In this document: piece by piece, positions 412 through 29,964 of the stretch | How positions within the stretch are numbered: position 1 is the first letter of the stretch | Layout: each line of letters opens with the position of its first letter | NCBI GenBank assembly: GCA_947625455.1 | Contig: CANQOJ010000003.1 | Span: 1-36,453, forward strand | Direction: 5' to 3' | Source of the DNA: an uncultured Clostridia bacterium | GTDB lineage: Bacteria; Bacillota; Clostridia; Oscillospirales; Ruminococcaceae | Length of the DNA stretch: 36,453 nucleotides | Notes under the pieces: generated by a model | The model's input: the letters and a program-made list of their open reading frames with translations, nothing else | Told to the model about the DNA's origin: nothing | Databases searched by the model: none | Translations under genes and position numbers: made by a program

Positions 412-1418
412 ACAAGATAAATACCGATACAAAAATACTGCTTACTGTGCAGTTGTGCGCTTTTGCGGCGGGATTTGTTGTTTGCTTTATTATAAGCCCG
501 AAATCGGCAGTTGTGCTTTCGGTGTTTGCGGCAATATGCGTTATATCCGAAATTATTGTATTGTTAAAGCGCAGGAAAAAGCTTTCAAGACTGTGCGACG
601 AGGTAGACAAAATTCTGCACGGGATTGAAACCGTTTCATTTGAAGAATTTAAGGAGGGCGAACTTGCGGTTTTGTCCTCTGAACTTCATAAAATGACCAT
701 TAAATTAAGAGAGCAGAATTTCGCGCTTAAAAAGGAAAAACAGTTTCTGAAAGAAAACCTTGAGGACATTTCACACCAAATCAGAACTCCGCTTACAACC
801 GTTCTTGTTATACTCGGAATGTTAAGGCAGGAAATCTCTGAAAAAGAACGCACCGAACACATCTCCGAAATGTTTACTCTGCTGTCAAAAATGCAGTGGC
901 TTCTGGAAACCTTACTCAACATCTCCCGCCTTGACGCAGGGGCGGTGACGCTAAGATATGAAACCGTCAAGGCAACGGACATCATTGACTCCGCGCTGTA
1001 TCCTCTGCTTATTCCGATTGAACTTAAAAACATCACGTTATATAAAAGCGCGGCAGATGACTTAAAGCTTAATGCTGACAGGCAGTATATCACCGAAGCG
1101 CTTGAAAATATCCTTAAAAACTGCGTTGAACACACTCCCGAAAACGGTGAAATACGGATTTCCGCAGAGGAAAACAACATCTATACTCAAATCACCGTTG
1201 CCGATACCGGCGCGGGCATTCCCGAAGAAGAACTTTCGCGAGTGTTTGAAAGATTTTACCGTGGGAAAGGCTTTTCAAGCAAGGGGTACGGGATAGGACT
1301 GGCGTTTGCGAAGAAAGCTGTCGTAATGCAGAATGGGACGCTTTCCGTTAAAAATGCGCGTGAAAAGGGCGCGGTTTTTGAGATGAGGATATATAAGTCT
1401 CAACTGAAGTCGGAATAA
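408..1418 (+). CDS. Sensor histidine kinase (VanS-like), two adjacent TM helices with a very short loop (intramembrane-sensing type)
   Basis: H-box EDISHQIRTPLT, N-box ENILKNCVEHTPENG, G-boxes DTGAGIP / GYGIGLAFA; TM pair separated by only SPKS. Confidence 0.93.
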   Translation: MNKINTDTKILLTVQLCAFAAGFVVCFIISPKSAVVLSVFAAICVISEIIVLLKRRKKLSRLCDEVDKILHGIETVSFEEFKEGELAVLSSELHKMTIKLREQNFALKKEKQFLKENLEDISHQIRTPLTTVLVILGMLRQEISEKERTEHISEMFTLLSKMQWLLETLLNISRLDAGAVTLRYETVKATDIIDSALYPLLIPIELKNITLYKSAADDLKLNADRQYITEALENILKNCVEHTPENGEIRISAEENNIYTQITVADTGAGIPEEELSRVFERFYRGKGFSSKGYGIGLAFAKKAVVMQNGTLSVKNAREKGAVFEMRIYKSQLKSE

Positions 1419-1419
1419 A

Positions 1420-1447
1420 TGTAAGAAAATTGTAAGTATTTCGTAAT
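1420..1447 (+). promoter_or_regulatory. Tandem OmpR-type direct repeats (TGTAAG, TGTAAG, CGTAAT) at 11-bp period upstream of vanY-like gene
   Basis: TGTAAG at 1420 and 1431, CGTAAT at 1442; exact 11-bp spacing. Confidence 0.65.
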
Positions 1448-1476
1448 AAAAAACGAATAAAATCTTCTCCGTGAAA

Positions 1477-1485
1477 TGTTATAAT
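1477..1485 (+). promoter_or_regulatory. Extended -10 element TGtTATAAT for the VanY-like gene
   Basis: TG at 1477-1478, TATAAT at 1480-1485, activator-like repeats just upstream of the -35 position. Confidence 0.65.
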
Positions 1486-1518
1486 CAATCTGATAAAAAC
1501 ATTTGACGGAGAAGAACA

Positions 1519-2199
1519 ATGAAAAAATTCAAGAGAGTACTATTCGTAACCCTTATAATTCTGGGCATATTCATAGTTTTATTTGCGTCCGCGTCTATTT
1601 ACCTTGAATATACCCTCTCACAGCCATGCGGAGAACAGGCAATTCTTTCCGAGTGGAATTTGATACTTGTAAACAACCATTACCACATACCCAAAGGTTA
1701 TGACGTAAAACTTATGGAACTTTCAAACGGGCAGAAAATTGACGAGAGGATTTATCCCGAATTGCAGGAAATGTTTGACGATATGCGAAGCGAGGGCGTT
1801 TATCCGTTTGTAAGAGAGGGCTACCGCACAGCTGACGAGCAAAAGGCGATACTGCGCGAATTTATCGGCGACTATATGGACCAAGGCTACAGCTTGACAA
1901 AAGCTTATGAACTCACGAGAAAAGCCGCCGCGGCTGTCGGAAACAGCGAGCATCAGCTGGGCATTGCCGTAGATATAAACGCCGACCTGGACAAATGCGA
2001 AGCATGGGATGTTTACAACTGGCTTGACGCAAACGCCTGGAAATACGGCTTTATACTGCGCTATCCTCCCGACAAAACCGATATAACCGAAACAAACTAC
2101 GAGCCTTGGCATTACCGCTATGTCGGCAAAGAAGCCGCGGAGGAAATACATTCGCGAGGGGTATGCCTTGAAGAATATCTCAACTTATCTGCTGCCTGA
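1519..2199 (+). CDS. M15B-family D-alanyl-D-alanine carboxypeptidase (VanY-like), membrane anchored
   Basis: N-terminal TM segment; SEHQLGIAVDI and EPWHYRYVG zinc-peptidase motifs; RBS GGAGAAG 4 nt before ATG. Confidence 0.92.
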   Translation: MKKFKRVLFVTLIILGIFIVLFASASIYLEYTLSQPCGEQAILSEWNLILVNNHYHIPKGYDVKLMELSNGQKIDERIYPELQEMFDDMRSEGVYPFVREGYRTADEQKAILREFIGDYMDQGYSLTKAYELTRKAAAAVGNSEHQLGIAVDINADLDKCEAWDVYNWLDANAWKYGFILRYPPDKTDITETNYEPWHYRYVGKEAAEEIHSRGVCLEEYLNLSAA

Positions 2200-2229
2200 A
2201 ATTTGACTTTTATACAGTCTTAATTTATC

Positions 2230-2258
2230 TTGACATATCATATTTTTCCTGCTACAAT
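2230..2258 (+). promoter_or_regulatory. Sigma-A promoter TTGACA-17 bp-TACAAT for HAD gene
   Basis: -35 TTGACA 2230-2235, -10 TACAAT 2253-2258, spacer 17 bp. Confidence 0.8.
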
Positions 2259-2277
2259 TAAAGCAGGGGGAATTATT

Positions 2278-3018
2278 ATGACCGAAAATTATCTGATATT
2301 CACCGACCTTGACGGCACGATTATCCGCTCGGCTAAAAACCGCTCTGAAACGGACGTTGTTGTTGAAAGGAAAAACGGAGAGGCAATAACCTGCGTTTCG
2401 GAATTTGCCTTGGGAAAGCTTGCGGGTTTAAAAAACGTTGTTCCCGTTACAACGAGGAGCATTGAACAATATCTGCGCATTGAAATTCCCGATTTCAAGC
2501 CGAAATACGCTATATGTTCAAACGGCGGGAATTTGCTTATAAACGGCGAAATCTGCGGGGAATGGCACAAGTTTTCCGAAACCGAATTTGAAAAGTGCAA
2601 AAGCGAAATGGAAAACTGCCGGAAGATATTTGAAAACGATATTAACCGCAGTTTTGAAATAAGGCTTGTGGACGGGCTTTTTCTGTTTACAAAAAGCCGC
2701 TGCGTTTCAGAAACTCTGAAAAACGCAGGCGGCTTTGAAAATCTTAACTGCTTTTCCGTGGGAGAAAAAGTTTACGCATTCCCGAAAGTTTTGAACAAGG
2801 GAGACGCAGTGAAGCGTTTTATTGAACGCGAAAACTTTAACGGCAAAATCATCTGCGCGGGCGACAGCCTGCCCGATATTCCCATGCTGAATATTGCCGA
2901 TACGGCGATTTTTCCAAACGAACTTTTTGGAGTTACGGCAAAAGAAAAGCTTTGCGCGCCGAGAGAGAATTTCTGTGATTTTACCGCCGAGATGTTCAGC
3001 TGTCAGCAAGGTTTTTGA
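2278..3018 (+). CDS. HAD-superfamily hydrolase (sucrose-phosphatase-like), associated with the Ter biosynthetic cluster
   Basis: FTDLDGTII motif, GDSLPDIPML; RBS AGGGGGA before ATG at 2278; the track's TTG start at 2230 is inside the -35 box. Confidence 0.85.
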   Translation: MTENYLIFTDLDGTIIRSAKNRSETDVVVERKNGEAITCVSEFALGKLAGLKNVVPVTTRSIEQYLRIEIPDFKPKYAICSNGGNLLINGEICGEWHKFSETEFEKCKSEMENCRKIFENDINRSFEIRLVDGLFLFTKSRCVSETLKNAGGFENLNCFSVGEKVYAFPKVLNKGDAVKRFIERENFNGKIICAGDSLPDIPMLNIADTAIFPNELFGVTAKEKLCAPRENFCDFTAEMFSCQQGF

Positions 3019-4093
3019 TAATCCCGCAGGCTTTGTAGTTTTTCAGCGGGTATTCCATAACCTCAACGCCCTTTTCCTTTGCAAGCTGATATAAATGCGC
3101 TAAATGCTCGTTGTCCGAGAGGCTGTGAACGAGGATTTTCCAGGGCATTCTCCTTAAAAGCACCCTTGTTGCTTCGCCTATACTCGGCTTTATAAGGTTG
3201 ATATCATTAACGCCGAATTTCTCCGCAATCTCTCTGACTTCTTCAAGTCCTCCGCGCATATTTCCCGAACTTTTTTCAAATACGGGCAATGGTCGTTTAT
3301 AATCAAACTTGCTTTCAACGGCGTTTATAAACTCATATGTCCTGTCTTTATCGGACAATTCTTTATAAAACGCCGCACCGTGAAAATCATCTTCGCCGAT
3401 TATGTCGTTGCGCAGAAACGTCCTGCTTAAAAGTCCCGAAACAGTTGAATTAAGCAGTGAACTCGCAATCAGAAAATCATCATGCGTACCGCATTTCTCC
3501 GCCATGTACGCAGGATCTGACAGCACCGCAAGTCCCGCGTTTAATTCGGGATAATCAAACATTGCGTTTTTGAGTTCGCGCTGTATTGCGCCTTTCCCCG
3601 TCCAGCCGTCAACAAACTGTATTGATGTGGGGGAATGGCGTTTTAAGATGAAATTCAGCGCGTTTTTGTCAATGCCTTTCCCGCGGATAATTGAAATTGT
3701 GTAGTGAACGACGTCAGCGTTAAATCTGCCCTTTAAATAGCGTTTAAGCAGTACGCCCACAGATGTTCCCGCGCGGGCAAGAGAAACCAGCACAGCATCT
3801 TTGCCCTTGTCCCGATATATTCTCATAGCGCAGTCAGCTACTGCGTCCGCCGTTATCTGCGAATATAAAGCAAGCGACTTTTCATAAATTCTTAAATACT
3901 CCTCTGTCGGTTCATATTCAAGCGGTAACATCTCCGAATAATGCACTCCGCTTTGTATAAGCTTTTCGCGTTCTTCCGAGCATAAAGGTTTGACAAGTCC
4001 CGTTATGTCCTTTAAAAGTATAACTACATCATCTTCAAGATAAGTTCCAAAAATTTCAACCCACTCCCAGAAAATAAATATGTTTACACCCAA
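2996..4093 (-). CDS. StiP/PRTase_1-family protein with C-terminal PELOTA-type domain (Ter biosynthetic cluster)
   Basis: SLARAGTSVGVLLKRYL ... IQFVDGWTGKGAI (PRPP-loop-like) ... KILVHSLSDNEHLAHLYQLAKEKGVEVMEYPLKNYKACGIIK. Confidence 0.82.
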   Translation of the reverse strand: MGVNIFIFWEWVEIFGTYLEDDVVILLKDITGLVKPLCSEEREKLIQSGVHYSEMLPLEYEPTEEYLRIYEKSLALYSQITADAVADCAMRIYRDKGKDAVLVSLARAGTSVGVLLKRYLKGRFNADVVHYTISIIRGKGIDKNALNFILKRHSPTSIQFVDGWTGKGAIQRELKNAMFDYPELNAGLAVLSDPAYMAEKCGTHDDFLIASSLLNSTVSGLLSRTFLRNDIIGEDDFHGAAFYKELSDKDRTYEFINAVESKFDYKRPLPVFEKSSGNMRGGLEEVREIAEKFGVNDINLIKPSIGEATRVLLRRMPWKILVHSLSDNEHLAHLYQLAKEKGVEVMEYPLKNYKACGIIKNLADS

Positions 4094-5156
4094 CCTGCCT
4101 TAACACCCTGCACAAATCGTTCAGTCCGTCCGTGAAATCACTGTTGCTGTCGGATACCACAACGGCGTAATCATGGGGTTTCAGGTTATATATAAACGTT
4201 TCGCGGGTGCTGTCGTAAAAACTTCTTAATTTATAACCGCTGTTTATGGGGTAATCATGCGCGTTGTTTATTCCGATAGGGCTTCTTGTCGTTGAATGGC
4301 AGAGGACGTTCATTCCCTTTTCTTCAAGAATTTCGCCAAGTATAACCGCGGGATACATACACTCTTCAGTGCCTAAAACCAGAATATCTGCGCCTTTCGG
4401 AAAACTTAAAATGTTCTCTGTAATTCTGCGCACTTCGCGTTTGTAATCGCCGATTTTTACGCCCATTCTTGCGTTCGGTATTTTTTCACCGCATTCAATG
4501 ACTTCATATTCGGCGGGCTTTTCATATTCAACGGTTTCCGCGGGTGTTACCCGTATATCCTCAACCGCTTTTTCATAATCGCCAAACGGCAGTTTTAAAA
4601 GGCACTCGGTTTTTATCCCCGCATCGGAAAGCCGTTTTTCGTTTTCCTCGGAAACGCGGTTTATGACTGAAGCGGCGATAAACTCTTTTCCTGTTGCATT
4701 CGGAAATTCCGCTTTTAATTGTTCGGCAATATTTATAAGCGTTTTCCCCGTTGATATTTCATCATCAATGAAGATTATCTGAGGGGTTTTCGAGATAAAC
4801 TCACCGAGGTTTTCGGAATACAATTTTTGTTCAACTGCGTGGCTGTGTTCTTCGGAAAAATAAACAAAGTTACCCTTGAAATCCTCGCGCGTTGTATGAA
4901 TATAAACGCAGTCATCGGGAAAACATTCCGAAACCCCCGCGCCTATTGCGGTAGCGGTTTCGGCAAAGCCTATCACAAGCCTTGCAGATGGGTATTTACG
5001 AAACAGCTTTTCACCTAAAGTCCTCATCATTTCCAGAGATGTTTTTGGACTTACGGGGATATGCTTCGCCTGCAGAGGATTTACAAGAAGATAACTGCGC
5101 TTGGTATTATTCAAGCGCTTTGCTGTTTTCAAAAGTTCGTCTGACGTGTAGTTCAT
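4056..5156 (-). CDS. PRTase_2-family phosphoribosyltransferase with TRSP domain (Ter biosynthetic cluster)
   Basis: IIFIDDEISTGKTL PRPP loop; literal TRSP motif HSTTRSPIG in the C-terminal half. Confidence 0.87.
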   Translation of the reverse strand: MNYTSDELLKTAKRLNNTKRSYLLVNPLQAKHIPVSPKTSLEMMRTLGEKLFRKYPSARLVIGFAETATAIGAGVSECFPDDCVYIHTTREDFKGNFVYFSEEHSHAVEQKLYSENLGEFISKTPQIIFIDDEISTGKTLINIAEQLKAEFPNATGKEFIAASVINRVSEENEKRLSDAGIKTECLLKLPFGDYEKAVEDIRVTPAETVEYEKPAEYEVIECGEKIPNARMGVKIGDYKREVRRITENILSFPKGADILVLGTEECMYPAVILGEILEEKGMNVLCHSTTRSPIGINNAHDYPINSGYKLRSFYDSTRETFIYNLKPHDYAVVVSDSNSDFTDGLNDLCRVLRQVGCKHIYFLGVG

Positions 5157-23933: not shown

Positions 23934-25022
23934 ATGTCAAACAGGCTTTTCCAAGGCATCGTGCATCAAATGAAAGACGCGGTAAACCGAGTTGTCGGAG
24001 TTATCGACGAAAACGGCACCACTATCGCTTGCAGTGATTTGGGAAAGGTCGGGAACAACGGGAATGATTTCTTCGCTATTGAACTCTCGGATTCACACGA
24101 GGTCTTTATCCGCGAGGGATATACCTATAAGCCTTTCGGCATACACGTTAAACCCGACTATGCTGTATTTGTCGAGGGAACCGACGAATACGCGTCAAGA
24201 TACGCAAACGTAATCGCGGTGTCCTTGGCAAACATAAAGCAGTACTATGATGAAAAATACGACAGAAACAACTTTGTCAAGAATATCATTCTCGACAATG
24301 TTCTTCCCGGCGATATAAGCGTAAAGGCGCGGGAATTGCACTTCAACGGCGACATAGGGAGAGTTGTTTTCCTAATAAGCGTTGTTTCGGCGAATGATGT
24401 TTCCGCCTGCGACGTTATTCAGAACCTTTTCCCCGATAAGAACAAAGACTTTGTTTTCAATATCACCGAAAACGACATTGTTCTTGTAAAGGAAGTCAAG
24501 AACAACATTGACGTAAAGGACTTGGAAAAACTTGCAAGAAGCATTTCCGACACGCTTTCGGGAGAGTTCTTCACAAAAGTTAATATCGGCATAGGCACGC
24601 CTATTGTCGGCATTAAAGAACTTGCGCGTTCGTTTAAGGAAGCGCAGACCGCCCTTGAAGTAGGAAAAGTTTTCGACACGGACAAAAACATTGTTTCATA
24701 TGACAACCTGGGTATTGCAAGGCTTATATACCACCTGCCGACAACGCTTTGCGAAACGTTTCTGAAAGAAGTGTTCAAGAAGAACTCAATAGAGTCGCTT
24801 GACCATGAAACTCTGTTTACAATTCAGAAGTTTTTTGAAAACAGCCTGAACGTTTCCGAAACTTCGAGAAAGCTTTTCGTACATAGAAACACTTTGGTTT
24901 ACCGCCTTGACAAGATAAAAAAGCTTACGGGACTTGATTTGCGCGAGTTTGACCATGCGATAATCTTTAAGATTGCGCTTATGGTTAAGAAATACCTCGC
25001 GGCAAATCCTACTAAGTTCTGA
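23934..25022 (+). CDS. CdaR/PucR-type transcriptional regulator (C-terminal HTH_30)
   Basis: FFENSLNVSETSRKLFVHRNTLVYRLDKIKKLTGLDLREFDHAIIFKIALMV; RBS AGAGG. Confidence 0.88.
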   Translation: MSNRLFQGIVHQMKDAVNRVVGVIDENGTTIACSDLGKVGNNGNDFFAIELSDSHEVFIREGYTYKPFGIHVKPDYAVFVEGTDEYASRYANVIAVSLANIKQYYDEKYDRNNFVKNIILDNVLPGDISVKARELHFNGDIGRVVFLISVVSANDVSACDVIQNLFPDKNKDFVFNITENDIVLVKEVKNNIDVKDLEKLARSISDTLSGEFFTKVNIGIGTPIVGIKELARSFKEAQTALEVGKVFDTDKNIVSYDNLGIARLIYHLPTTLCETFLKEVFKKNSIESLDHETLFTIQKFFENSLNVSETSRKLFVHRNTLVYRLDKIKKLTGLDLREFDHAIIFKIALMVKKYLAANPTKF

Positions 25023-25106
25023 TAAAAAAGCGCGGACAGCCGCAGAACATTGCGGCTGTATTGTGCGTTTTAAGAGGATAGCAGTTATTTGGGGGAATAT
25101 AAAGAA

Positions 25107-25793
25107 ATGGTAGAAATGAAAAACGTCAACGTTCGCTATTCAAGCGGAGTTGACGCTCTTGTAGACGTAAATCTTCGCATAAACGACGGAGAATTTGTGT
25201 TTATAGTCGGGGAAAACGGCGCGGGAAAATCAACGCTTATGAAGCTTATGATGCGGGAAATTGTTCCGTCATCGGGAAGAGTTTTCGTAAACGGCTATAA
25301 CCTTTCAAGACTTAAAGGCAATAAAATCGCAAAATTCCGCCGTTCTATCGGCGTTGTTTTCCAGGAGTTCAGATTGATACAGGATTATACGGTATATGAA
25401 AACGTTTCGTTCGTTTTAAGAATTGCCGACCAGTCGGGAAAGTACATAAGACAAAGAGTGCCTTATGTGCTGAACTTAGTTGAACTTAACACCAAGGCAA
25501 AAAGCAGAACAAGAGAACTTTCGGGAGGCGAGCAGCAGCGCGTCGCGATTGCCCGCGCCCTTGCAAACGATCCCGGATTGCTTATAGTAGACGAGCCTAC
25601 GGGAAATCTTGATCCAAGACATTCGCTTGAACTTGTGGGATTGCTTAAGGAAATAAACCGCTGCGGTACAACGGTTATCATGATAACTCACGAACATGAA
25701 CTCGTGCAGTATTTCGGCGGCAGGATAATAAATTTCGACAAAGGCTCAATAACATTCGACAGAGTGATCGGAGGCAGCGATGAGGACGAGTAA
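25107..25793 (+). CDS. ftsE: Cell-division ABC transporter ATPase FtsE
   Basis: Walker A GENGAGKST, signature LSGGEQQRVAIARA, Walker B LLIVDEPTGNLD; followed by ftsX. Confidence 0.95.
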   Translation: MVEMKNVNVRYSSGVDALVDVNLRINDGEFVFIVGENGAGKSTLMKLMMREIVPSSGRVFVNGYNLSRLKGNKIAKFRRSIGVVFQEFRLIQDYTVYENVSFVLRIADQSGKYIRQRVPYVLNLVELNTKAKSRTRELSGGEQQRVAIARALANDPGLLIVDEPTGNLDPRHSLELVGLLKEINRCGTTVIMITHEHELVQYFGGRIINFDKGSITFDRVIGGSDEDE

Positions 25794-26685
25794 CGTAAGC
25801 TACCTTGTTAAAAAGGGAATAACCTCTGTCTGGAAGAATTTTGTAATGTCGTTCGCGAGTTTTTGTATTCTTCTCGTAAGTCTTTTGCAGGTAAGCGTGA
25901 CTGTACTGTTTATGCTTAATGTGAATATCATTATGAATAACATTGAAAACACAAACGAGATAACGATATACGTTAAAGACGGCGCTACGCAGGAACAAAA
26001 GGACCATATACAGGACGTTCTTGAAAAGGACGAAAATCTGACGGATATTGCATATAAATCATCTGAGGAGGCTTTGGAGGAGTTTAAGGCAACTCTTGAT
26101 GATGTTGCGGTGCTGTTTGATTATCTGCCGAAAAACCCTATGCCCGAAACATTTCTGGTGAGAGTAAAAGACCTTACAAAGATAAGTTATTCGGTAGCGG
26201 CAATATCCAGCATCGACGGCGTTGACCAGGTAAAAGCCCCGTATGAATTTGCGGCGGCGCTTGTAAACATAAGAGATACGTTTTCTATCATAATCATAGC
26301 AATGCTTGTAACGCTTATTGCGGTGAGCATAGTGGTAGTTTCAAACACCATTAGAACAAGCGTTTTTGCGCGTCGCGAGGAAATTTCTATCATGAAATAT
26401 GTCGGTGCTACAAACGGTTTTATAAAACTGCCGTTTTTTGTAGAGGGTATGTTTATCGGCGTTTTGGCGGGGTGCGCGTCATTCGGACTGGCTTGGTTTA
26501 TATACAACTCTGTTTTTTCGCTGTTCAGCGCTGAAAATTTCTCGCTGTGGCAGATGTTCGGATTTTTTAATCTCATTCCGTTTAATAAAATCATGTGGGT
26601 AGTGCTTGCGGCAAACTGCGCGGCGGGTGCGCTTTTAGGCGCTGCGGGTACGGTTATAAGCACGGGGAAATACTTAAAGGTTTAA
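25780..26685 (+). CDS. ftsX: Cell-division protein FtsX
   Basis: N-terminal TM + extracellular domain, FARREEISIMKYVGATNGFIKLPFFVEGM, overlaps ftsE by 14 nt. Confidence 0.95.
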   Translation: MRTSNVSYLVKKGITSVWKNFVMSFASFCILLVSLLQVSVTVLFMLNVNIIMNNIENTNEITIYVKDGATQEQKDHIQDVLEKDENLTDIAYKSSEEALEEFKATLDDVAVLFDYLPKNPMPETFLVRVKDLTKISYSVAAISSIDGVDQVKAPYEFAAALVNIRDTFSIIIIAMLVTLIAVSIVVVSNTIRTSVFARREEISIMKYVGATNGFIKLPFFVEGMFIGVLAGCASFGLAWFIYNSVFSLFSAENFSLWQMFGFFNLIPFNKIMWVVLAANCAAGALLGAAGTVISTGKYLKV

Positions 26686-26713: not shown

Positions 26714-27916
26714 GTGAATAAAAAAATATCTTTGGGCGTTGCAATAAGCCTTATTGCGATAGGCTGCGCGGTTACGTTTGTATTGACGTGGACAGTGTCG
26801 CTTAACGTCTACAATTCAAAAATCAGCAACGTGGAACAATACGAGGGCGTTTATGAAAAAATAAGGCAGATGGACGCGGTCGTAAGAAACAACTTTATCG
26901 GCACATTTGACGACGACGCTGTTAAAAACGGCATCCTGAACGGCTATGTAGACGGTTTGAATGATGAAAACGCGGCGTATATCCTGCCAAACTCGTACTA
27001 TGAACAACAGCAGATTGAAAGCGGTGTTGTAAACGGCGCGGGATTTGAGGCTTATGACGACGGTTCGGGTTATCTTGTGGTTTCAAACGTGTACAAAAAC
27101 AGTTCCGCCGACCTTAACGGAATGCGTGCGGGGGATATAATCACCGAAATTGACGGCAGAAACGTTATGGCAATGGAAAGCGGAACGGCGCTTGACAGAA
27201 TTTCGGGCGCAATAGGCACCCAGCTTACGATTAAATATCTGCGCGACGGGGAAAGCTACACTGTAAACCTTATACGCCAGCAGGTTGAAATTGAGTCGGT
27301 AACCGAAGAAATGCTTGACGGAAAGGTCGGGTATATCCGCATTACTTCGTTCAATCAGAAAACTGCCGAGCAGTTTTCGCGCTCGCTGAATACGGTGCTT
27401 GAAAGTTCGCCTGTGGCGCTTGTTATAGATGTAAGGCAAAATTCGGGCGGTATTTATTCATCTTTAAAGCCTATGTTAAACCGTATATTGCCCGCGGCAA
27501 TCGCGGCTACCGCCGAATATCAGAACAAAACGAGAAAACCGCTTATTGAAACGGATTCCGAACAGCAGCTTGAAATACCCGTGGCAGTTTTGGTGGATTC
27601 CGGAACAGCGGCAGCAGCGGAACTTTTCGCTGTCGCGCTTAAAGACGAGGGCGGCGCAATTCTGGTAGGCACGCAGACAAGCGGAAAAGCCGATATTCTC
27701 ACGACATACGTTTTCCCTGACGGCACTGCGCTTACTATCCCTACGGCAAAGGTCATTCCGTCAAAGTCCGCGTCGTATGACGGGGTAGGGCTTACTCCCG
27801 ATTATGCGGTAGAACTTCCGTCGGGATTGTCAATTGCGTATCTTGAACATGAAGCGGACACTCAGCTTATAAAGGCGCTTGAGGTGCTTGTGCCCGATCC
27901 CGCTGAACCCGATTGA
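26714..27916 (+). CDS. S41-family C-terminal-processing protease homologue with PDZ domain (nucleophile position is Ala)
   Basis: GTG start; [70 protein letters not shown]. Confidence 0.9.
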
Positions 27917-27954: not shown

Positions 27955-28443
27955 ATGAACAAACCCATTACAGTACTGACGAGAAAAGGAGAGGAAAAGC
28001 TAAAGGCTGAACTTAACGAACTGCGTTCGGTAAAAAGGCGCGAGATTGCGGAGAAAATCAAAGTCGCGCTTTCATTCGGCGACCTTTCGGAAAACAGCGA
28101 GTATGACGAAGCTAAAAACGAACAGGGCATAATCGAGTCGAGAATTGCCGAAATTGAAGCAACTCTTGCACACGCGCAGGTTATCGACGACGAGGACATT
28201 TCAACAGAAAAAGTCGGCATAGGCACGACTGTAAAGATACTTGATGTTGAAATGGACGAGGAAATGGAGTTCAAGATTATCGGCACAAAAGAAGCTGATA
28301 TAAACAACGGCAGAATGTCCGACGAAAGCCCCATAGGCGCGGCAATAATGGGCAAAAAGGTCGGAGATGTGGTTGACGTTGAAGCGCCGGTTGGTATAAT
28401 CAAGTTTAAGGTTTTGGACATCAGAAAAGAAGACGAGGACTAA
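27955..28443 (+). CDS. greA: Transcription elongation factor GreA
   Basis: [43 protein letters not shown] before ATG at 27955. Confidence 0.97.
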
Positions 28444-28449
28444 TTGTAA

Positions 28450-29964
28450 ATGACGGAAAATAACAACAACGAAGAAATTACGGAAATAACCCAAGAGGAG
28501 CTTGACGAACAGCACAGAGTGCGCCTTGAAAAGCTCAACGCACTTAAAGAAGCGGGAAATGATCCGTATAAAATAACGCAGTATCCCGTTGATATACACA
28601 ACGCCGAGATAAGAGAGCGTTTTGACGAACTTGAAAACAAGGACGTCTGCATAGCGGGGCGCATGATGACGCGCAGAAATATGGGCAAAGCGAGTTTTAT
28701 CGACATTCGCGACAGCTCCGACAGAATGCAGGTCTATGTGAGAATAGACAACGTCGGCGAAGAAGCATTTGCGGCGTTTAAAAAGTGGGATCTGGGCGAT
28801 ATTCTGGGAGTAAAGGGCTTTGTGTTTAAGACAAAGACGGGCGAAATTTCCGTACACGCAAGCGAAGTTGTCCTTTTGTCAAAGTCGCTTTTGCCCCTGC
28901 CCGAAAAATGGCACGGCTTAAAGGACAAGGAAGAACGCTATAGAAAGCGTTATCTTGACCTTATCGCAAACCCCGAAGTAAAGGATGTTTTCATAAAGCG
29001 TTCAAAGATACTGTCGGAAATAAGGAAATTCCTTGACGGTCACGGATATGTCGAGGTTGATACGCCTGTGCTTTTGCCTATAGAGATAGGCGCGTCCGCA
29101 AGACCGTTCAAGACGCACCACAACGCGCTTGATATTGATATGTACCTCAGAATTGAAACCGAATTGTATCTGAAAAGGCTTATTGTCGGCGGATTTGACA
29201 AGGTTTACGAAGTAGGCAGGATTTTCAGAAACGAGGGCATGGACGCTACTCATAATCCCGAATTTACGTCAATTGAAATGTATCAGGCTTACATCAACTA
29301 TTTTGAGATGATGGACTTAATCGAGGAGCTGTACAGAACGGTTACCCTCAATGTCTGCGGTACCGATACGGTTGAATATCAGGGAAAGCAGATAGCTGTC
29401 GGAAAACCCTGGGAGCGCCTTACCATGATAGACGCGGTGAAGAGGTATGCGGGCGTTGATTACCGCGAATGGGAAACCGACGAGCAGGCGAGGGCGTGCG
29501 CAAAGGAAAAGGGCGTTGAGGACGGCGTAAATGCAAGTTCAACAAAGGGTGATGTGCTTATTGCGTTCTTTGAGAATTTCGTCGAGGACAAGCTGATACA
29601 GCCGACGATAATCTACGATTATCCCGTTGAAAATTCACCGCTGGCAAAAAGAAAAACCGATGAACCCGCGTTTACCCAACGTTTTGAGTATTTCATAAAC
29701 GGAACGGAGTTTGGAAACGCATTCTCCGAACTCAACGATCCCATTGACCAGAAAGAGCGTTTTGTAAAGCAGGTAGCCGCAAAGCGCGCGCAGGGCGGAA
29801 ATGACGCGCAGGTCGACGACGATTTCATAACCGCGCTTGAATACGGACTTCCCCCGACTGGCGGGCTGGGATTTGGATTTGACAGACTTGTAATGCTGCT
29901 TACAAATTCCGCGAGCATTAGAGATGTGCTGTTGTTCCCGACAATGAGACCGATAAATGATTGA
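28450..29964 (+). CDS. lysS: Lysyl-tRNA synthetase, class II
   Basis: MTRRNMGKASFIDIRD, FRNEGMDATHNPEFTSIEMYQAY, GGLGFGFDRLVMLLT. Confidence 0.97.
   Translation: MTENNNNEEITEITQEELDEQHRVRLEKLNALKEAGNDPYKITQYPVDIHNAEIRERFDELENKDVCIAGRMMTRRNMGKASFIDIRDSSDRMQVYVRIDNVGEEAFAAFKKWDLGDILGVKGFVFKTKTGEISVHASEVVLLSKSLLPLPEKWHGLKDKEERYRKRYLDLIANPEVKDVFIKRSKILSEIRKFLDGHGYVEVDTPVLLPIEIGASARPFKTHHNALDIDMYLRIETELYLKRLIVGGFDKVYEVGRIFRNEGMDATHNPEFTSIEMYQAYINYFEMMDLIEELYRTVTLNVCGTDTVEYQGKQIAVGKPWERLTMIDAVKRYAGVDYREWETDEQARACAKEKGVEDGVNASSTKGDVLIAFFENFVEDKLIQPTIIYDYPVENSPLAKRKTDEPAFTQRFEYFINGTEFGNAFSELNDPIDQKERFVKQVAAKRAQGGNDAQVDDDFITALEYGLPPTGGLGFGFDRLVMLLTNSASIRDVLLFPTMRPIND

Follow-up and report, generated by a model that had tools for sequence, protein, structure and literature searches.

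The locus examined here raises the question of what a protein with the fold of a carboxyl-terminal processing protease (CTP) does behind ftsE and ftsX when its nucleophile appears to be missing. The window, i.e., the whole 36,453-nt stretch of DNA that was analyzed, has the layout ftsE-ftsX-S41-greA-lysS, with all five genes on the + strand. ftsE (25089..25793; ABC_tran, 127 bits, and synteny in relatives) overlaps ftsX (25780..26685; Pfam FtsX_ECD and FtsX over their cut-offs), and after a gap of 28 nt follows the gene of interest (26714..27916), which has a GTG start preceded by GAGG and encodes a 400-aa S41/CTP-type pseudo-protease. Downstream are greA (27955..28443; GreA_GreB domains), with an AGGAGG ribosome site ahead of its ATG, and lysS (28450..29964; tRNA-synt_2 and synteny); greA lies 3′ of the S41 gene across the whole genus. 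A PucR/CdaR-like regulator is encoded upstream of ftsE (23934-25022). Its C-terminal parts visible in congeners are 96-100% identical, compared to about 54-60% for the S41 protein in the same genomes, an unusually strong conservation for a regulator.

The window protein belongs to the S41 family by a wide margin (Peptidase_S41, PF03572, 119 bits against a Pfam cut-off of 24). A PDZ domain (residues 108-190; 27035..27283, placed by Pfam) precedes the S41 core, with PDZ_2 (PF13180) and PDZ_6 (PF17820) both over cut-off. A CtpB_N-like start (PF22694) scores 15 bits, below its threshold of 27, and the curated CTP-protease model TIGR00225 (prc) scores 167 bits, under its 218.6 cut-off. The sequence begins with a hydrophobic membrane anchor at about residues 7-31 (26732..26806), a region where the low-confidence predicted model has a helix (residues 7-37). 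That model, generated from a nine-row alignment, has a mean pLDDT of 45.5, and the PDZ domain is its sole well-modelled part, mostly at pLDDT 67-91. By sequence, the best PDB relatives are Pseudomonas aeruginosa CtpA and Bacillus subtilis CtpB, the latter a member of the CTP-B subfamily (S41A) that resembles the window protein in its transmembrane anchor, its PDZ and S41 core, and perhaps, given the sub-threshold score, its N-terminal start. B. subtilis ctpB likewise adjoins ftsEX. Escherichia coli Prc/Tsp has longer N- and C-terminal domains and matches the window protein only weakly in sequence. The CTP fold is retained in the window protein, as are its PDZ domain and a conserved C-terminal helix.

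We next turn to its active site. CtpA and CtpB use a Ser-Lys-Gln triad (PMC8764530). In MAFFT alignments of 149 orthologues, taken from 200 related genomes of which most are probably MAGs, the serine-nucleophile column holds Ala300 in the window protein (GCA, 27611..27613). The catalytic Lys column holds Lys325 (AAA, 27686..27688), 25 residues further on, and the third triad position (Gln, at Lys+4) is Leu329 (CTC, 27698..27700). The preliminary description had reported the Ala, and the Lys kept at the same spacing, from a 34-residue segment that is present in the protein as quoted; the alignments bear out both readings and add the Gln position, the half-degenerate sister species, and the recurrence across the family, none of which it mentioned. 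The Ser-Lys spacing is the same in E. coli Prc/Tsp (S452 and K477). Compared to CtpB, with Ser309, Gln338, and Arg168, the window protein has Ala300, Leu329, and Ser164. The best PDB match, the engineered S302A variant of P. aeruginosa CtpA, carries a GSAAAAE loop that resembles the GTAAAAE of the window protein; here, however, the substitution is natural and is accompanied by loss of the Gln.

A substitute Ser close by was considered as the nucleophile and rejected: Ser323 (in TSGK) is Gly or Ala in 3/5 of the species with Ala300, and position 299 holds either Ala or Glu. The alignment of orthologues, which the preliminary description had proposed as a check, places no different Ser at the nucleophile position, and nearby Ser residues are unconserved among the Ala species. 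A sequencing or assembly error at this codon is excluded, as the Ala is common to five species (G000, G023, G042, G006, and G013) and to four separately named MAG records (L096-L099), the latter possibly the same assemblies as the G-numbered genomes. With neither the nucleophilic Ser nor the Gln of the triad left, the window protein should not cut peptides. Its proteolytic inactivity is well supported by sequence, and we infer inactivity in vitro. Engineered Ser-to-Ala CTPs of P. aeruginosa (PMC8764530) and Helicobacter pylori (PMC12749690) show no cleavage.

Among the orthologues that follow ftsEX in related Clostridia, the Ser loss is fixed in five species, each of which carries both Ala300 and Leu329. 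Four sister species are half degenerate: Ser and Lys are kept, but the Gln is replaced by Val and the second Gly of the GG motif by Glu. The nine species form a fully supported group, within which the DNA tree neither supports nor excludes a single clade of the five Ala species; most other members of the genus have an intact Ser-Lys-Gln. Pairwise dN/dS (NG86) is 0.038-0.16 among the five Ala species vs 0.04-0.20 among active congeners, values that are approximate as many dS estimates exceed 1. This constraint rules against pseudogene decay in the window group. Within the genus, the active-site changes thus probably came stepwise while the constraint on the protein stayed strong. Separate active-site changes are seen in two other members of the genus in which the catalytic Lys is Arg and the Ser and Gln are kept (L031 and L036), and in one with Leu for the Gln (L042). 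A backup CTP was also considered and rejected, since no second S41 gene besides the window gene was found in the 93%-complete source genome. An unlinked CTP with intact Ser-Lys-Gln is present in three other genomes with a Ser-less protein (G061, G074, and G092), and most such genomes are without one. Given the loss of Ser and Gln, its fixation in several species, the strong purifying selection, and the FtsEX synteny, the proposal of a pseudo-CTP in the ftsE-ftsX operon stands, and the window protein is very probably a genuine pseudoenzyme.

The PDZ domain also differs from that of CtpB. The column that corresponds to substrate-sensor Arg168 of CtpB, mapped via alignment to the PDB relative and followed by column count, is Lys or Arg in 38/40 class-level homologues, variable in this order, and Ser, Ala, or Thr across the whole genus of the window. 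As the sensor residue is not Lys or Arg in the genus, PDZ ligand gating may differ from that in CtpB, and this distribution suggests that a change in gating may have preceded loss of the nucleophile.

The explanation that we favor, with a modest degree of confidence for the account as a whole, is that the window protein descends from an active CtpB-like CTP, is membrane-anchored outside the cytoplasm, and serves as a non-cleaving, peptide-binding part of FtsEX-controlled wall remodelling. In CtpB, the S309A substitution leaves intact both peptide binding at the PDZ domain and adoption of the active conformation (PMC3808539); a natural Ser-to-Ala CTP could therefore act as a ligand-responsive switch without cutting. 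The window protein would hold or gate a partner, for instance an EnvC-like M23 hydrolase or the extracellular domain of FtsX. We put the chance that it is an FtsEX-related scaffold or switch at about even. The more specific idea of the preliminary description, in which the protein would scaffold a septal hydrolase, is a plausible conjecture. Partner binding and a role in division are what we infer from this body of comparisons.

Gene order bears on the FtsEX connection. FtsX is encoded directly upstream of the S41 gene in all 42 congeners for which upstream DNA could be read. Elsewhere in the order, the gene for an EnvC-like coiled-coil M23 protein separates ftsX from the S41 gene (ftsE-ftsX-coiled-coil M23-S41), and greA and lysS often come next. 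In the genus of the window the M23 gene is gone from the ftsEX operon. Genome G000 encodes two tandem coiled-coil M23 proteins of 459 and 448 aa on contig C144 (L163; - strand, positions 1304-4170 counted on the reverse complement), and on visual inspection their Zn motifs are intact; the operon's M23 gene was apparently relocated and duplicated in this genus. With two M23 genes elsewhere in the genome, a hydrolase partner is available, though not adjacent to the S41 gene. Departure of the M23 gene as the cause of the Ser loss was rejected, as most congeners with the same arrangement keep Ser-Lys-Gln. Ser-less and other lineages showed no clear difference in M23 chemistry (Zn motifs in 22/24 vs 62/66) or in the C-terminal tails of the proteins.

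The FtsEX synteny may reflect co-expression and not shared function. The protein would then be a ligand- or peptide-binding envelope protein unrelated to FtsEX, as are the S41-fold retinoid-binding modules of IRBP, and the operon would serve only for expression. Retinol-binding protein 3 is a recognizable non-CTP relative of the window protein, and no ftsX was found in the fetched upstream DNA in a few Ser-less genera (L074, L087, and L123), both consistent with such a role. However, of the 28 proteins from other genera that lack the Ser, 22 have FtsX and M23 immediately upstream in the fetched DNA, and one more has FtsX alone. We consider a role apart from FtsEX unlikely.

The favored reading, a non-cleaving part of FtsEX-controlled wall remodelling, also draws on the recurrence of Ser loss in the family, a large one of uncultured gut Clostridia. 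The Ser is absent from 33/149 orthologues, replaced by Gly, Ala, Cys, Tyr, Gln, Arg, Leu, or Phe, and at least 25 of the 67 sampled genera of the family have a Ser-less member, a share counted among the matches listed and probably an underestimate. When the motif columns are left out of tree building, the tree requires a minimum of 17 changes, though strongly supported branches force only 6 of these. Three of the sampled genera have no readable species with the Ser (19/19 Ser-less in g16, 14/14 in g62, and 5/5 in g42). Another family of the same order, f24, is Ser-less in 3/3. Across 40 families elsewhere in the class, no protein without the Ser or Lys was found in a set that, being made up of best matches, leans towards conserved proteins.

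To see what erodes in these proteins, we took the columns near-invariant in the active members and compared them across these 28 proteins from other genera. Leaving the Ser itself aside, the catalytic and oxyanion columns are 59% retained, whereas 22 further conserved columns reach 94% (Fisher p of about 1e-23, which overstates the significance as rows are not independent). The Lys is kept in 11 of the proteins, the Gln in 19, and the N-x-G-G positions (243, 245, and 246) in 16-19, and structural positions, D239, R241, E303, G319, T322, G324, G359, and D382 among them, are kept in 28/28. The alignment thus gives a clear direction of erosion, in which catalysis is lost and the fold retained.

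Recurrent loss might instead reflect relaxed selection only, with proteolysis no longer needed and the gene drifting towards loss. Consistent with this, tip branches are longer in the Ser-less proteins outside the genus (median 0.67 vs 0.40), the entirely Ser-less g42 is looser in its constraint (dN/dS 0.38-0.62), and some members of the family lack any S41 match (the well-assembled G105, G107, and G116, and the less complete G064), indicating that the protein is dispensable in places and can be lost outright in the family. In the window group, by contrast, dN/dS is about 0.1, there are no stops or frameshifts, and the structural columns are intact, and g16 and g62 have stayed Ser-less over 19 and 14 species at low close-pair dN/dS (about 0.05-0.25). 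For the window group this explanation is already largely refuted, and we regard it as improbable overall.

Equally doubtful to us is that the site has been re-chemistried, i.e., that it uses another nucleophile or carries out a different reaction. Some FtsEX-linked CTPs have Cys-Lys-Gln for Ser-Lys-Gln, a pattern that spans five species of g16 (L224, L226, L228, L230, and L232) and two other genera (L064 and L105), and these members are possibly cysteine-type CTPs and still enzymes. Three further g16 species (L225, L229, and L231) share Glu, Asp, and Thr at the Ser, Lys, and Gln positions, a hint that the site has become fixed in a new role. The retention of Lys325 in the window group also agrees with a changed chemistry. 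However, Ala is no nucleophile, no conserved Ser or Cys is nearby in the sequence, and the Gln is gone in the window group.

B. subtilis CtpB activates sigma-K signalling (PMC3808539), and two genomes with Ser-less proteins (G059 and G085) have no Spo0A or SpoIVB match, but loss of an ancestral CtpB sporulation task is a very improbable reason for the loss of proteolysis and is contradicted as a general cause of Ser loss by the Spo0A_C and SpoIVB/S55 matches in 5/5 Ala-group genomes and in most other Ser-less genomes.

A non-cleaving partner of FtsEX would have parallels in known systems. The FtsEX effectors EnvC, CwlO, PcsB, and RipC are, like the window protein, extracytoplasmic proteins encoded with FtsEX. 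EnvC itself has a degenerate LytM domain. The window protein differs from these effectors in having an S41 fold and not a LytM, CHAP, or NlpC fold, and hydrolase activation by it would be conjectural. Proteases that have lost catalysis and been repurposed are known in MamO of magnetotactic bacteria and CspC of Clostridioides difficile (PMC4794232, PMC6636752), although these belong to other protease families and pathways than the window protein.

Work on CTPs has treated them as proteases, with wall enzymes as targets for trimming or degradation. In the open-access literature searched, we found no description of CTPs that are encoded in ftsEX operons and inactive. An FtsEX-linked CTP, usually single-copy, whose catalysis was lost at least about 17 times under selection amounts to a natural separation-of-function experiment. 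Such recurrent loss under selection suggests that the protein has a task other than cutting, one that probably lies in FtsEX-controlled wall remodelling, and in about one third of the sampled genera of the family the annotation as an S41 peptidase is wrong. We tentatively propose, as a possibility that falls short of our favored account, that the FtsEX-linked CTP has two functions, with a structural FtsEX-related role that is ancestral and outlives catalysis and with side branches that re-chemistry the site (Cys-Lys-Gln; Glu-Asp-Thr). If this is true, the recurrent family-wide loss would reveal a general non-proteolytic role for CTPs in division.
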